Shown here: piece by piece, positions 5,293-11,945 of the stretch
How the letters are laid out: each line of letters starts with the position of its first letter
How positions within the stretch are numbered: position 1 is the first letter of the stretch
Assembly: GCF_012641395.1 (NCBI RefSeq)
Contig: NZ_JABAIH010000011.1
Location: 1 to 64,000 of the forward strand
DNA from: Rhizobium sp. P32RR-XVIII
Lineage (GTDB): Bacteria; Pseudomonadota; Alphaproteobacteria; Rhizobiales; Rhizobiaceae
Reading direction: 5' to 3'
DNA length: 64,000 nucleotides
Program-made: the position numbers and the translations under genes
Notes under the pieces: generated by a model
Told to the model about the DNA's origin: nothing
Databases searched by the model: none
Seen by the model: only the letters and a program-made list of their open reading frames with translations

Positions 5293-5499
5293 TCATGCGC
5301 TGCGCCGGTTGCCGACATAGGGTAGGGCGAACAGATAGAGGCCGGTGAACAACAGCAGGAAGAGCGGCGGCAACGGCGAGTAAACCACCCAGGCGGGTGG
5401 CGTCCCCAACGCCATGGCGGCGAAGTTGGCAATGACCGTCACCGTAAAGACCATGGAAAGCCAACGATGGACCTGCCGGATATATTTATTCCAATTCAA
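5293..5499 (-). CDS. Small two-helix membrane protein
   Basis: Predicted 68-residue inner-membrane protein of unknown function. Two hydrophobic segments are visible, about residues 14-33 and 40-60, separated by a short loop GTPPAWVVYSP and followed by a basic tail. The family of short rhizobial proteins beginning with a (K)YIRQ(V/I)HRW stretch is known to me only as hypothetical. The start is TTG at 5499, chosen because a textbook AGGAGGAG lies 6 bases upstream; no ATG in frame fits. It is the last member of a minus-strand run with the ArsR and AHSA1 genes, after a decayed gene. Confidence 0.75.
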   Translation of the reverse strand: MNWNKYIRQVHRWLSMVFTVTVIANFAAMALGTPPAWVVYSPLPPLFLLLFTGLYLFALPYVGNRRSA

Positions 5500-5778: not shown

Positions 5779-6189
5779 TCAGTCCGCCCGCGCCAGAACC
5801 TGCTCCAGATTCGCAAAGAACTTCTGCCAGCCGAACCGGGCGCCGTTGTAGGCCTGCTGCTGATCCGGCCGGAAGCCAGATTGCTCCATGCGCAGGTGCG
5901 TTCCCGTGCTGGTCGGCGTCAGTGTCCAGATGACAACGCTCTCGAGTCCATGAGCTGCCCAGGTGTAGGAAAGCGTCCTGTTCGGCTCGACTTCCAGGAC
6001 TTTGCAATCGACGGCACCCCAGTCGGCGCTGAGTTTGAAGATGTGGTGCAAGACGGGCCTGAAGTCGTTCTTCATGAGCCACTCCTCGATCAGATGCGGC
6101 TGTGTCAGCGCCCGCCAGATCTTTTCCGGCGGAAAAGCAACGTGGCGTTCGACGACGACGGAGAGTGTTTCGGTCGAGGTCAGGGTCAT
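5779..6189 (-). CDS. AHSA1/SRPBCC domain protein
   Basis: A 136-residue single-domain protein of the START/Bet v1-like fold (AHSA1, activator-of-Hsp90 homologue family). Typical marks are VERHVAFPPEKIWRALT near residues 13-29, the W-E-W around residue 37, and the C-terminal helix GFRPDQQQAYNGARFGWQ...NLEQVLA. Such proteins bind a small hydrophobic ligand in a deep cavity; the ligand here is unknown. It overlaps the upstream ArsR gene by four bases (ATGA), so the two are translationally coupled, a very common pairing in which the regulator controls the operon. Confidence 0.88.
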   Translation of the reverse strand: MTLTSTETLSVVVERHVAFPPEKIWRALTQPHLIEEWLMKNDFRPVLHHIFKLSADWGAVDCKVLEVEPNRTLSYTWAAHGLESVVIWTLTPTSTGTHLRMEQSGFRPDQQQAYNGARFGWQKFFANLEQVLARAD

Positions 6190-6509
6190 TGGTCCATCCT
6201 TTTGAGCAAATCTTCGAGATCGTCGAACCGACTTTCCCAGAAGCCGGCCATCTGGCTCGTCCAGTCGACCAATGGGGCGAGCGCCTTACGCTGCGCGCTA
6301 TAGTGCGTCTGGCGGCCTTCGTGACGGTCGCGAACCAGGCCGGCGTCCTTCAGAACCTTGAGATGTTTCGAAACGACCGGCTGCGAAACGCCGGCCTGCG
6401 CCGTCAGGGCGCCGACCGTCTTCTCCCCCTCACGGCACAGCCGTTCGAAGATGGCCCGCCGGGTCGGGTCGGCAAGCGTCCTGAAAAGCGCATCATGGGT
6501 GTTCGTCAC
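6186..6509 (-). CDS. ArsR-family winged-helix regulator
   Basis: Small dimeric DNA-binding repressor. The product (about 107 residues) has the family opening LFRTLADPTRRAIFERL, the recognition helix region VSQPVVSKHLKVLKDAGLV and the wing DRHEGRQTHYSA. There is no metal-binding CxC in helix 3, so it belongs to the SRPBCC-linked branch rather than the metal sensors. I prefer the GTG start at 6509: the ATG at 6527 has no ribosome binding site, homologous proteins begin close to TNTHDALF, and the ATG version lies inside a large palindrome that looks like the operator. It is the first gene of the operon with the AHSA1 gene. Confidence 0.88.
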   Translation of the reverse strand: MTNTHDALFRTLADPTRRAIFERLCREGEKTVGALTAQAGVSQPVVSKHLKVLKDAGLVRDRHEGRQTHYSAQRKALAPLVDWTSQMAGFWESRFDDLEDLLKRMDQ

Positions 6510-6514
6510 CGGAA

Positions 6515-6564
6515 ATTCATACCTCATTGGCTATGGATTGACGTATAGCCGGCGAGGTATGAAT
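6515..6564. promoter_or_regulatory. 50-bp nested palindrome, probable ArsR operator
   Basis: Two inverted repeats share one centre. The outer arms are ATTCATACCTC (6515-6525) and GAGGTATGAAT (6554-6564), 11 of 11 complementary. The inner arms are GGCTAT (6529-6534) and ATAGCC (6545-6550), 6 of 6. It covers the region just upstream of the preferred ArsR start. Confidence 0.65.
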
Positions 6565-6603
6565 ATGTCAAGCGGCAATGCCGATAACCCGTCGCGCAAA
6601 AGA

Positions 6604-6628
6604 AAAGGCCGCTCGGGGAGCGGCCTTT
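6604..6628 (-). terminator. Terminator of the DUF4167 gene
   Basis: An 11-bp perfect stem, AAAGGCCGCTC against GAGCGGCCTTT, with a three-base loop, followed on the minus strand by TTCTTTT. It lies 26 bases after the stop codon of the DUF4167 gene and insulates the ArsR promoter. Confidence 0.8.
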
Positions 6629-6654
6629 GATCAAACCATCGTCTTGAAACGAAA

Positions 6655-7359
6655 TTACTCGGAAGCCGCTTCCGCCAGCGCCGGCGCAGGCGTCTCGTTT
6701 GAAGCGCCCTCACCGGCATCTTCACCCTCGGCGCCACGGCGCGGACGGCGCGGGCGACTGCCGGCATTGCGGCGGCGAGGCTGGCGCTCCCGCGGGGCGG
6801 CGGAGGTTTCTTCCTCCATGGCGACTTCGGCTGGAATTCCTTCGATTTCCGGCTGCGGACCGGTCCCGTCAATGGCTTCCTGCTCCGCAACTGGAGCCGG
6901 AGCCGGAGCCGGGGCTGCCGCTTCCGCGCGCTGCTCGCGGCGATGCTGCTCGCGCGGCGGCTGAACGACAACAACTTCGTCGCCGTCTACCGTATCCAGC
7001 TCGTCACCTTCGCGCTCGAGACCGTCGCGGTCCGTGTATTCGTTCCGATCATCGCGCTGGAAGCGTTCCTGCATCTGCGCCTGGGCGGCCGCAATGATCC
7101 GGTTGTAGTGCTCTGCATGCTGCAGGTAATTTTCAGCGATGACGCGGTCGCCGGAGCTTTGTGCATCACGGGCAAGCTGCGCGTATTTTTCAGCAATATG
7201 CTGAGCCGTACCGCGAATCTTCACGTCGGGGCCGGAGCTGTCGTAGCTCCGAGTCAGCGGATTGCCGCCCTTGCGGTTGAAATTGTTATTATTGTTATTT
7301 CCGCCGCCGTTGTTGTTACCACGCCCTCGACCGCGCTTGTTCTGCTGTCCTGGCCTCAT
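6655..7359 (-). CDS. DUF4167 domain protein
   Basis: A 234-residue protein typical of Rhizobiales and of unknown function. The N-terminus is very basic with RGRGRGNNNGGGNNNNNN, then a conserved DUF4167 core (about 30-105) with SGPDVKIRGTAQHI and the repeated helical segments ARDAQSSGDRVIAENYLQHAEHYNRI. The C-terminal half is low complexity, rich in Ala, Pro, Glu and Arg, and probably disordered. The RG and poly-Asn stretches suggest contact with RNA or condensate-like behaviour, but that is inference from composition. The gene has its own terminator and a long leader and stands alone between ArsR and prmC. Confidence 0.85.
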   Translation of the reverse strand: MRPGQQNKRGRGRGNNNGGGNNNNNNFNRKGGNPLTRSYDSSGPDVKIRGTAQHIAEKYAQLARDAQSSGDRVIAENYLQHAEHYNRIIAAAQAQMQERFQRDDRNEYTDRDGLEREGDELDTVDGDEVVVVQPPREQHRREQRAEAAAPAPAPAPVAEQEAIDGTGPQPEIEGIPAEVAMEEETSAAPRERQPRRRNAGSRPRRPRRGAEGEDAGEGASNETPAPALAEAASE

Positions 7360-9677: not shown

Positions 9678-11945
9678 CTAAAGGGGAATATTGTTACTCG
9701 CGGCGAAGCCGACAAGCACCTCGCGTACCGGCGTCGTAGACACGACATCGTCCAACGCCTGGTTCACGACTTTGGAAAGGGCTTCAACTTCGAGCGCAAG
9801 CAGCATCGCTTTCACCGGCCCGATTGAGGCCGGCGACATTGAGACCGAACGGAACCCGATACCGAGCAGCGCCATCGCCGAAATCGGCTTGCCTGCCAGC
9901 TCACCGCAAAGCGTGACAGGAGTGTTATTGCGCTCGCCGGCCCGCACGATCTCGCGAAGAATACGGAGGAACGGCTTGCCAAGCGGATCGAAGCGGTCCG
10001 AGACCCGTGCATTTCCGCGATCGACCGCCATCGAGAACTGGAAGAGGTCGTTGGACCCCACAGAGACGAAATCGACTGCCGCCATCAGTTCGTCAAGCTG
10101 CCAGAGCAGCGCCGGCACCTCCACCATCGCGCCGAATTGCAGCTTGCGAGGCAAACCGTGGCCGAAGCGGGAAAGATGCTGCACTTCTTTCTGCAGCAAT
10201 TCGCGCACCGCGGCGATTTCGGAGACCTCGGTCACCATCGGCACCATGAGCTTCAGCTCGATGCCCGCCGCAGCCCTCAGCATGGCACGAAGCTGCGTCC
10301 GCAGCAGTCCCGGCCGATCGAGTGCAAGGCGGATCGCACGCCAGCCCAGCGCCGGATTCTCTTCCTCATGGCCGCGGAAATAGGGCACTACTTTGTCGCC
10401 ACCAATATCGAGCGTGCGGAAGGTGACGACGCGGCCGGCCGCCTGCTTCACGACGTTGCGGTAGAAAAGCTCCTGCTCCTCCGCCTTCGGCATGGTCGAC
10501 GCGATCATGAACTGCAGTTCTGTGCGGAAAAGCCCGATTCCTTCAGCCCCCGATTCCGCGAGCTGCGGCAGATCGACCAGAAGGCCGGCATTCATCAGCA
10601 GAGAGATGCGCTGTCCGTCCTTGGTGAGCGGTTCGACGGAGCGCAGCGCCCGGAACTGTTCCTGCCGGCGGGCCCGGAAGCGCACCTTCTCCTCGTAGGA
10701 CCGCTGATGCTCCGGCAGGGGCCGCAAGTGCACATGGCCCTCATCGCCATCGATGATGATAGCGTCGCCGTTTTCGGCAAGCGCTACAACGCCGGCCGCC
10801 TGCCCGATCACCGGAATGCCCATGGCGCGCGCGACGATCACCACATGGCTGGTGACCGCGCCTTCTTCCAGCACAAGGCCACGCACATTGGCGCGCGGAT
10901 AATCGAGAAGCTCGGCCGCGCCCATGGCGCGCGCCAGAATGATCGCATCGTTCGGGAATCCATCGCCCGCTGTCCGGCCCGAATATCCGGTGAGCTGCCG
11001 CAGCAGCCGGTTCGCCAGATCCTCGAAATCATGCATGCGTTCGCGCAGATACGGATCTGTCAAGCGCATCATACGCGCCTTGGTATCGCTCTGCACCTTT
11101 TCGACCGCGGCCTCTGCCGTGAGCCCGTTTCGGATCGCTTCTTCGAGCTTCCTCACCCAGCCCTGGTCGTGAGCGAACATGCGATAGGTTTCGAGAACTT
11201 CGCGATGCTCACCCTCCATCGAGACGTCTCGCTGCGACAGCAGATCGTCAATCGAAATTCTGAGCGAGCCCAACGCCTCCGAAAGTCGGCGTATCTCCTT
11301 CTCCGAGTCCTCGTTCAGCAGGTTGGTGACGACGACGCGCGGCTCGTGCAGTACGACATAACCAAGCCCGATGCCCTCATTGTAGGTATCGCCGTCGATC
11401 GTCACCGAACGCGTCAGATCGAGTTCGAGACCCGGCTTGGTGATCTTCTTCAGCTCGCCGGTGGCGATCATTTCGGCGAGCACCATCGCCGTGGTTTCGA
11501 GTGCTTCCAGCTCTTCTTCGCGGTAGGTGCGGCTCGCCTTGTTCTGCACGACGAGAACGCCAAGCGAGCGCCCGGTGCGCAGGATCGGCACGCCAAGGAA
11601 CGAATGGTAGATTTCTTCGCCGGTCTCCGGAAGATAGCGGAAGGCTGGATGCGATTGCGCGTCGGAAAGGTTCAGCGGTTGCGCCGAAGCCGCGATCGTG
11701 CCGACAAGCCCCTGCCCCATCTTCAGCTGGGACAGGTGGACAGCCTCTTTCTTCAGGCCTTCTGTTGCATAGAGCTCGAGAACGCCGTCAGCGCGCAGCA
11801 CATAGACGGAGCAGACCTCCGCCACCATGTTGCTGGCGATCTGGCGAACGATCCGATCGAGACGCTCTTGTGGCTCCAGCGGCTCCGCCATCAACTCGCG
11901 CAGCCGCTTGAGCAACACGCGCGGACCGCCGGAAAGGTCTCTCAT
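9678..11945 (-). CDS. ptsP: PEP-protein phosphotransferase PtsP (enzyme I Ntr)
   Basis: First enzyme of the nitrogen phosphotransferase system; it moves phosphate from phosphoenolpyruvate to NPr and then EIIA-Ntr, a regulatory relay rather than a sugar transporter in rhizobia. The 755-residue protein begins with a GAF domain (about 15-160), which senses glutamine in related enzymes, then the swivelling phosphohistidine domain with GAVTSHVVIVARAMGIPV holding the active histidine, and the C-terminal PEP-binding barrel with the catalytic cysteine in TLCGELAGKP. It lies in the same direction as lysC upstream and prfA downstream. Confidence 0.95.
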   Translation of the reverse strand: MRDLSGGPRVLLKRLRELMAEPLEPQERLDRIVRQIASNMVAEVCSVYVLRADGVLELYATEGLKKEAVHLSQLKMGQGLVGTIAASAQPLNLSDAQSHPAFRYLPETGEEIYHSFLGVPILRTGRSLGVLVVQNKASRTYREEELEALETTAMVLAEMIATGELKKITKPGLELDLTRSVTIDGDTYNEGIGLGYVVLHEPRVVVTNLLNEDSEKEIRRLSEALGSLRISIDDLLSQRDVSMEGEHREVLETYRMFAHDQGWVRKLEEAIRNGLTAEAAVEKVQSDTKARMMRLTDPYLRERMHDFEDLANRLLRQLTGYSGRTAGDGFPNDAIILARAMGAAELLDYPRANVRGLVLEEGAVTSHVVIVARAMGIPVIGQAAGVVALAENGDAIIIDGDEGHVHLRPLPEHQRSYEEKVRFRARRQEQFRALRSVEPLTKDGQRISLLMNAGLLVDLPQLAESGAEGIGLFRTELQFMIASTMPKAEEQELFYRNVVKQAAGRVVTFRTLDIGGDKVVPYFRGHEEENPALGWRAIRLALDRPGLLRTQLRAMLRAAAGIELKLMVPMVTEVSEIAAVRELLQKEVQHLSRFGHGLPRKLQFGAMVEVPALLWQLDELMAAVDFVSVGSNDLFQFSMAVDRGNARVSDRFDPLGKPFLRILREIVRAGERNNTPVTLCGELAGKPISAMALLGIGFRSVSMSPASIGPVKAMLLALEVEALSKVVNQALDDVVSTTPVREVLVGFAASNNIPL

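Follow-up and report, generated by a model that had tools for sequence, protein, structure and literature searches.

A nested palindrome ahead of a rhizobial arsR-AHSA1 operon: a putative double operator with covarying arms

The 50-bp dyad ahead of the arsR-family gene is, with high probability, the autoregulatory operator of an arsR-AHSA1 operon. Its layout points to two tandem, almost abutting sites, each predicted to bind one ArsR dimer. A putative operator is thus supplied for the ArsR-AHSA1 pair of alphaproteobacteria, which is widespread and, in the literature searched, apparently uncharacterised. The dyad lies in a window of 64,000 nucleotides, the whole stretch of DNA analysed here, and the features that concern us are listed in Table 1. 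On the minus strand the order is the terminator of the upstream gene, CTTGAC (6572-6567), the dyad (6564-6515), GTG 6509 and the arsR-family gene.

Table 1. Features of the arsR-AHSA1 regulatory region, in window coordinates
Feature	Position	Strand	Remarks
Whole 50-bp dyad	6515..6564	.	Centre 6539.5; kept in 252/261 orthologous loci
Site A, upstream ArsR dimer site (predicted), ATTCATACCTCGCCGGCTATACGT	6541..6564	-	Core ATACC-N6-GCTAT, 6545-6560; occupancy predicted
Site B, downstream ArsR dimer site (predicted), ATCCATAGCCAATGAGGTATGAAT	6515..6538	-	Core ATAGC-N6-GGTAT, 6519-6534; occupancy predicted
-35-like box CTTGAC	6567..6572	-	TTGA 24 nt before site-A TAT in 230/252 loci, 22-23 nt in the remaining 22
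-10-like box CTATAC	6543..6548	-	Right half of site A; 18 bp from the -35-like box
Putative transcript start zone	6534..6538	-	Deduced from the -10-like box
Intrinsic terminator of upstream gene	6604..6628	-	1 found against a shuffle mean of 0.3; separates upstream gene from operon
arsR-family gene, 107 aa, start GTG 6509	6186..6509	-	Pfam HTH_5, E 3.5e-13; start by comparison
Codon of recognition-helix Val45 (Val51 from ATG 6527)	6375..6377	-	Residue tracking half-site base
AHSA1/SRPBCC gene	5779..6189	-	Pfam AHSA1, E 1.4e-21; ATGA overlap with arsR stop

The dyad was initially described as two perfect inverted repeats with a common centre, and this is correct. The outer arms, of 11 bp, are ATTCATACCTC (6515-6525) and GAGGTATGAAT (6554-6564). 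The inner arms, of 6 bp, are GGCTAT (6529-6534) and ATAGCC (6545-6550). Both pairs are centred on 6539.5. An inverted-repeat search reports the same DNA as a single repeat, with 20-nt arms (6515-6534 and 6545-6564) that are 85% complementary and separated by a 10-nt spacer. Each of the two predicted sites is ATAnC-N6-GnTAT with AT-n-C on the outside, giving 24 bp with flanks. The 24-bp units are 2 bp apart and their centres are separated by 26 bp. The preliminary description considered the element far larger than usual ArsR operators; it is rather two adjacent sites of ordinary size. In the 7.19-Mb genome the double site is unique. A genome-wide search at zero mismatches found no other single CATANCYNNNNRGNTATG site and no second double site.

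The first gene of the operon encodes a protein with an ArsR-type winged-helix HTH (HTH_5, 49.6 bits against a cut-off of 22; HTH_20, E 1.4e-14). The AHSA1 gene was found downstream in 245 of the 260 orthologous loci with enough sequence, and 199 of those 245 have the ATGA overlap. The longest possible ArsR reading frame begins at ATG 6527 and overlaps the dyad, as had been claimed. As was also proposed there, the start codon is most likely GTG 6509 rather than ATG 6527. In 174 of 252 loci the first start codon aligns with GTG 6509, against 7 of 252 with an ATG at the position of 6527, and in 216 of 252 loci there is no further start within twelve codons upstream. These counts take the first candidate codon at each locus, so some of the 37 TTG codons counted may be spurious. 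A hydrophobic 68-aa reading frame with a TTG start and GAGGAG upstream follows the AHSA1 gene (5293-5499, minus strand); it could belong to the operon as a third gene or stand apart from it.

A promoter appears to overlap site A. The S. meliloti promoter consensus is CTTGAC-N17-CTATAT (PMC2873474), and the spacing here is 1 bp longer. Since CTATAC lies 18 bp from CTTGAC, the right half of site A could act as a -10 box. Across 252 loci the -10-like box is CTATAC in 67 and TTATAC in 45. The -35-like box is 11 bp ahead of site A in 49 of 50 aligned loci. Because placement of the sites required TTGA within 22-26 nt of the site-A TAT, all 252 loci necessarily have it; this does not hold for the near-fixed distance of TTGA or for its occurrence in the 50-locus alignment. 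A generic sigma-70 scan of 6400-6700 returned no promoter. Transcription would start between sites A and B, at about 6534-6538.

The mechanism that we infer from the sequence, for repression, dimer binding, dimer number, transcript start and signal alike, would be as follows. A dimer of ArsR bound at site A would lie over the spacer and the -10 box, and block recognition of the -35 and -10 elements. A second dimer, on site B, would extend over the putative transcript start and leader and across the ribosome-binding region as far as GTG 6509. Together, the two dimers would block the promoter until a signal releases the repressor. That signal may be a small molecule with some connection to the AHSA1/SRPBCC product. 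An arsenic/metal site of the Cys-Val-Cys-Asp-Leu-Cys type, as in R773/E. coli ArsR (PMC6555750), was not found in the regulator sequence. The protein's single cysteine lies in ERLCREG; the classical arsenic site is therefore missing.

Among studied systems, Rv2034-Rv2035 of Mycobacterium tuberculosis comes closest in kind. There too an ArsR-like regulator comes first in the operon, is paired with a Polyketide_cyc2/SRPBCC protein and represses its own expression (PMC3338718). Rv2034 binds a palindromic site of ~20 bp over the promoter, and the metals tested did not release the repressor (PMC3338718). The systems differ in that a single palindrome, CCGTAAGT-N4-ACTTACGG, was footprinted for Rv2034 (PMC3338718), whereas here there are two tandem predicted sites of another sequence. 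For the ArsR-AHSA1 family, the mostly open-access literature searched contained no described operator. The available part of a Rhizobium etli/S. meliloti network study names ArsR genes and gives no operator (PMC11387232).

Orthologous loci were collected by searching with the protein at three taxonomic levels and in named genomes. Matches were found in 89 of 199 genomes from the family (E 1e-20), 69 of 100 from the genus (E 1e-30) and 77 of 397 from the order (E 1e-35); from the named genomes the best 80 of a longer match list were taken. The set comprised 288 loci; 282 could be used, and 261 of these were at least 60% identical. The six excluded loci were one that runs off its contig (L018) and five distant ArsR loci of the same genome as the query, with no match at E 1e-10. 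The sample is non-random, being the best 80 named matches and a part of the matches at E 1e-20 to 1e-35. Moreover, some species or genomes are represented more than once among the 261 loci, having come from more than one collection; L011 and L116, for example, are the same contig.

A looser procedure that demanded TTGA located both sites in 252 of the 261 loci, and a stricter pattern did so in 232. In an alignment of 50 loci the half-sites ATAnC and GnTAT are almost invariant. The distance between site starts in these first 50 aligned loci is 26 bp in 29, 27 bp in 11, 28 bp in five and 25 bp in five. In 251 of the 252 placed loci, 9-12 bp separate the TAT of site A from the ATA of site B. The arms are thus conserved in orthologous loci, contrary to the outcome that the preliminary description had named as refuting it. 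This comparison supports the suggestion of an operator-like element, and anatomy and conservation favour its occupation by two dimers. The sites could not be placed in nine of 261 loci, four of which also fail a looser form of the pattern search. In two Mesorhizobium loci (L107 and L140) the ArsR gene is retained but the promoter and site A have been lost, and the upstream sequence differs. Another locus (L192) retains only part of the promoter/site A region. The query has an ortholog of 85% identity, with a degenerate site A, on a betaproteobacterial contig, of Cupriavidus lacunae (L151); this ortholog was probably acquired by horizontal transfer.

The regulator coevolves with this DNA, through a tie between residue 45 and one half-site base. 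Residue 45 is the X of SQP-X-VSKHL, and the base is the n of ATAnC, read on that strand. Removal of identical arm pairs reduced the 252 loci to 237 rows, in which residue X is Ala (120), Val (101), Gly (nine) or another residue (seven). Of the 101 Val rows, 90 have C in the outer half-site of B and 99 have G in the inner half-site of A; of the 120 Ala rows, 116 and 105, respectively, have A at these positions. The remaining half-sites follow residue 45 weakly. The inner half-site of B has G in all 101 Val rows, and G (80), A (38) or T (two) in Ala rows; the outer half-site of A has C (55), G (37) or T (nine) in Val rows, and T (53), A (40), G (22) or C (five) in Ala rows.

These associations were also followed on a gene tree. 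The tree was built from arsR itself, of which residue 45 is one codon. Residue X changes on 15 branches, and nine of these changes are exchanges of Ala and Val. The outer B base switches between C and A on the same branch in nine of nine Val/Ala switches, and changes on 14 of 457 other branches. The inner A base changes on seven of the nine Val/Ala branches, against 14 of 457 others. Of the 15 branches on which the residue changes, five also show a change of the outer A base and three a change of the inner B base; on the 457 others the corresponding counts are 65 and 16. Among sister pairs, the outer B base differs in five of five Val/Ala pairs (as A/T in one) and in 12 of 103 pairs of the same class (Fisher 5.6e-5). 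We consider this a candidate one-residue recognition rule, with the nine paired switches as a natural experiment in repressor-operator co-change. Correlations between protein and DNA have been studied in other families (PMC5045206, PMC8222616). In a structure model of the regulator, helix 43-55 would bear residue 45; the model is weak (mean pLDDT 72.4, pTM 0.46; the other four models 47-51) and was not used as evidence.

Other helices accompany other sites. In five loci with an AQPT helix (L277, L280, L281, L284 and L287), ATGAA replaces GnTAT in the outer half of B. Two of these (L284 and L287) also have an altered outer half of A (ATTCAC), and their arms stay complementary. Fifteen distant relatives (~49-57% identity; L060-L069, L071 and L074-L077) have the helix TQ[GS]A-SQHL and carry ATTAG-N6-CTAAT instead, with the same 5-6-5 geometry. 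Exact copies number at least one in nine of the 15, and two, in tandem, in five of the 15. The other six of the 21 distant loci examined have other helices, and ATTAG-N6-CTAAT was found in none of them. The operator of NolR, a winged-helix ArsR family regulator of the rhizobium Sinorhizobium fredii, is of the ATTAG type; it resembles the sites of the TQ[GS]A-SQHL relatives and not the dyad. NolR is among the solved relatives of the present regulator (E 1.2e-8 with the profile), and its DNA-bound structure is 4omy (cited in PMC8879271).

We also measured covariation between the arms. For a sign test, 118 edge-disjoint sister pairs were used; at positions 4-22, cases where both arms had changed were scored for mirror complementarity. 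Positions 1-3 cannot vary, being fixed by the way the sites were placed. Across the dyad, 58 changes were concordant and 24 discordant (p 1.1e-4), so the covariation in relatives that the preliminary description had proposed looking for is present. Controls gave 13:18 within A, 4:7 within B and 20:19 for a direct comparison of A and B. In the registers slid from -3 to +3 the ratios were 9:8, 8:13, 19:17, 13:10, 6:7 and 14:17. Hence, the arms covary only in the true inverted register. A permutation test gave 58 against 29.8 expected. This figure may be inflated by deeper shared ancestry at positions with more than two bases, which is why the sign test was made and is preferred. The recognition code accounts for part of the covariation. 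When its two positions are left out, the ratio is 40:20 (p 0.007) in same-class pairs and 9:3 in different-class pairs.

This result bears on the common centre, which the preliminary description had treated as special. Two tandem palindromic sites produce a nested palindrome with a common centre automatically, and to that extent the centre is unremarkable; the covariation of the arms does need explaining. Consequently, we keep only in part the notion of two independent palindromes whose shared centre is a mere by-product. It explains the centre and fails on the covariation.

A bolder proposal, to which we give slightly less than an even chance, is that the operator is a single mirror-symmetric 50-bp DNA unit. 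Its arms would co-change beyond the half-sites, through either dimer symmetry with outer and inner half-sites read differently or template switching, and Val or Ala would set C or A, with at least nine joint switches. The first of these routes refines the double-operator reading and does not replace it. Two dimers would assemble symmetrically about 6539.5, with outer and inner subunits reading their half-sites differently, and the arms would coevolve as mirror images. Contact between the two dimers would account for a symmetry that spans the dyad. We regard this as possible, if on the doubtful side. It would account for the sign test across the dyad, with nothing comparable in the within-site, direct and slid controls, and for the persistence of the signal in same-class pairs without the code positions. 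It also fits an excess of well-matched arms: perfect 19/19 arms occur in four of 237 rows, and 14 rows have at least 17 matches against 1.4 expected from shuffled arms. Conversely, the variable gap of 9-12 bp corresponds to ~100 degrees of helical turn, and the covarying positions 7-10 are barely conserved, which is odd for protein contacts. Moreover, one-sided changes that restore pairing are near the expectation from composition (331 of 614, against ~321 from summed composition values). Position 13 alone exceeds expectation, with 21 restoring changes against 10.7.

In the second route, replication would switch template from one arm to the other (quasi-palindrome correction) and so homogenise the inverted repeat of the operator. 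The mechanism has been described for inverted repeats and RNA stems (PMC8794818, PMC8604942). Covariation confined to the inverted register, and the tail of perfect arms, are what it would leave behind, and on one suggestive branch (L171) five of five left-arm changes restore pairing. Even so, we think it rather unlikely. Restoring changes do not come in bursts and are not overdispersed among branches (likelihood ratio 0.00). Multi-base conversion of one arm to match the other was not detected among the 38 arm-branches with at least three changes: all-restoring groups of at least three numbered four, against 5.4 expected. The covariation poses a question that can be tested directly, whether operator symmetry is maintained by protein assembly or by mutation.

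Double operators are already known from the smt operator-promoter, where two inverted repeats bind one dimer each (PMC6555750). The dyad likewise has two inverted repeats in one operator-promoter; their occupancy by dimers is here only predicted. The smt system differs in that its regulators sense metals and its half-site is another one. The available part of the account of the smt operator says nothing of arms that covary in mirror fashion (PMC6555750). The present case shows an unusually clear recognition switch and a mirror covariation still in need of explanation.

Covarying arms could also be expected of RNA, and the dyad had been suggested to fold as a leader hairpin that controls the operon post-transcriptionally. 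A 61-nt stretch does fold as RNA at -22.6 kcal/mol (z -5.76). Nevertheless, the -35-like box sets the putative start between the sites, and thereby between the arms, so the left arm would be outside the message. The leader predicted from that start folds no better than shuffled sequences (z +0.72). Pairs of G·T number 375 against 459 expected, a ratio of 0.82, compared with 0.90 for A·C and 0.91 for other mismatches. Depletion of G·T like that of other mismatches indicates no wobble tolerance, and the constraint looks to be at the level of DNA, not RNA. An Rfam search gave three sub-threshold matches only, and no family at gathering score. The hairpin was, therefore, rejected as the main reading, and control of the operon by such a structure is unsupported and, in our judgement, highly improbable.

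On the repeat statistics alone, a chance origin of the dyad is unlikely but not impossible. With at least 17 of 20 matches and a gap of 0-14 nt, the 64-kb window has two inverted repeats, the dyad and one at 11869. Simulated order-1 sequence has a mean of 0.15 per 64 kb, and three of 40 simulations contained any. A functionless chance palindrome, to which a second repeat of like quality inside a coding frame might lend some colour, is already contradicted by placement of both sites in 252 of 261 orthologous loci and by the coevolution with the regulator, and we dismiss it as having a negligible probability. The other repeat (11869-11917), the only one of equal quality in the window, is within the ptsP reading frame and looks coincidental.
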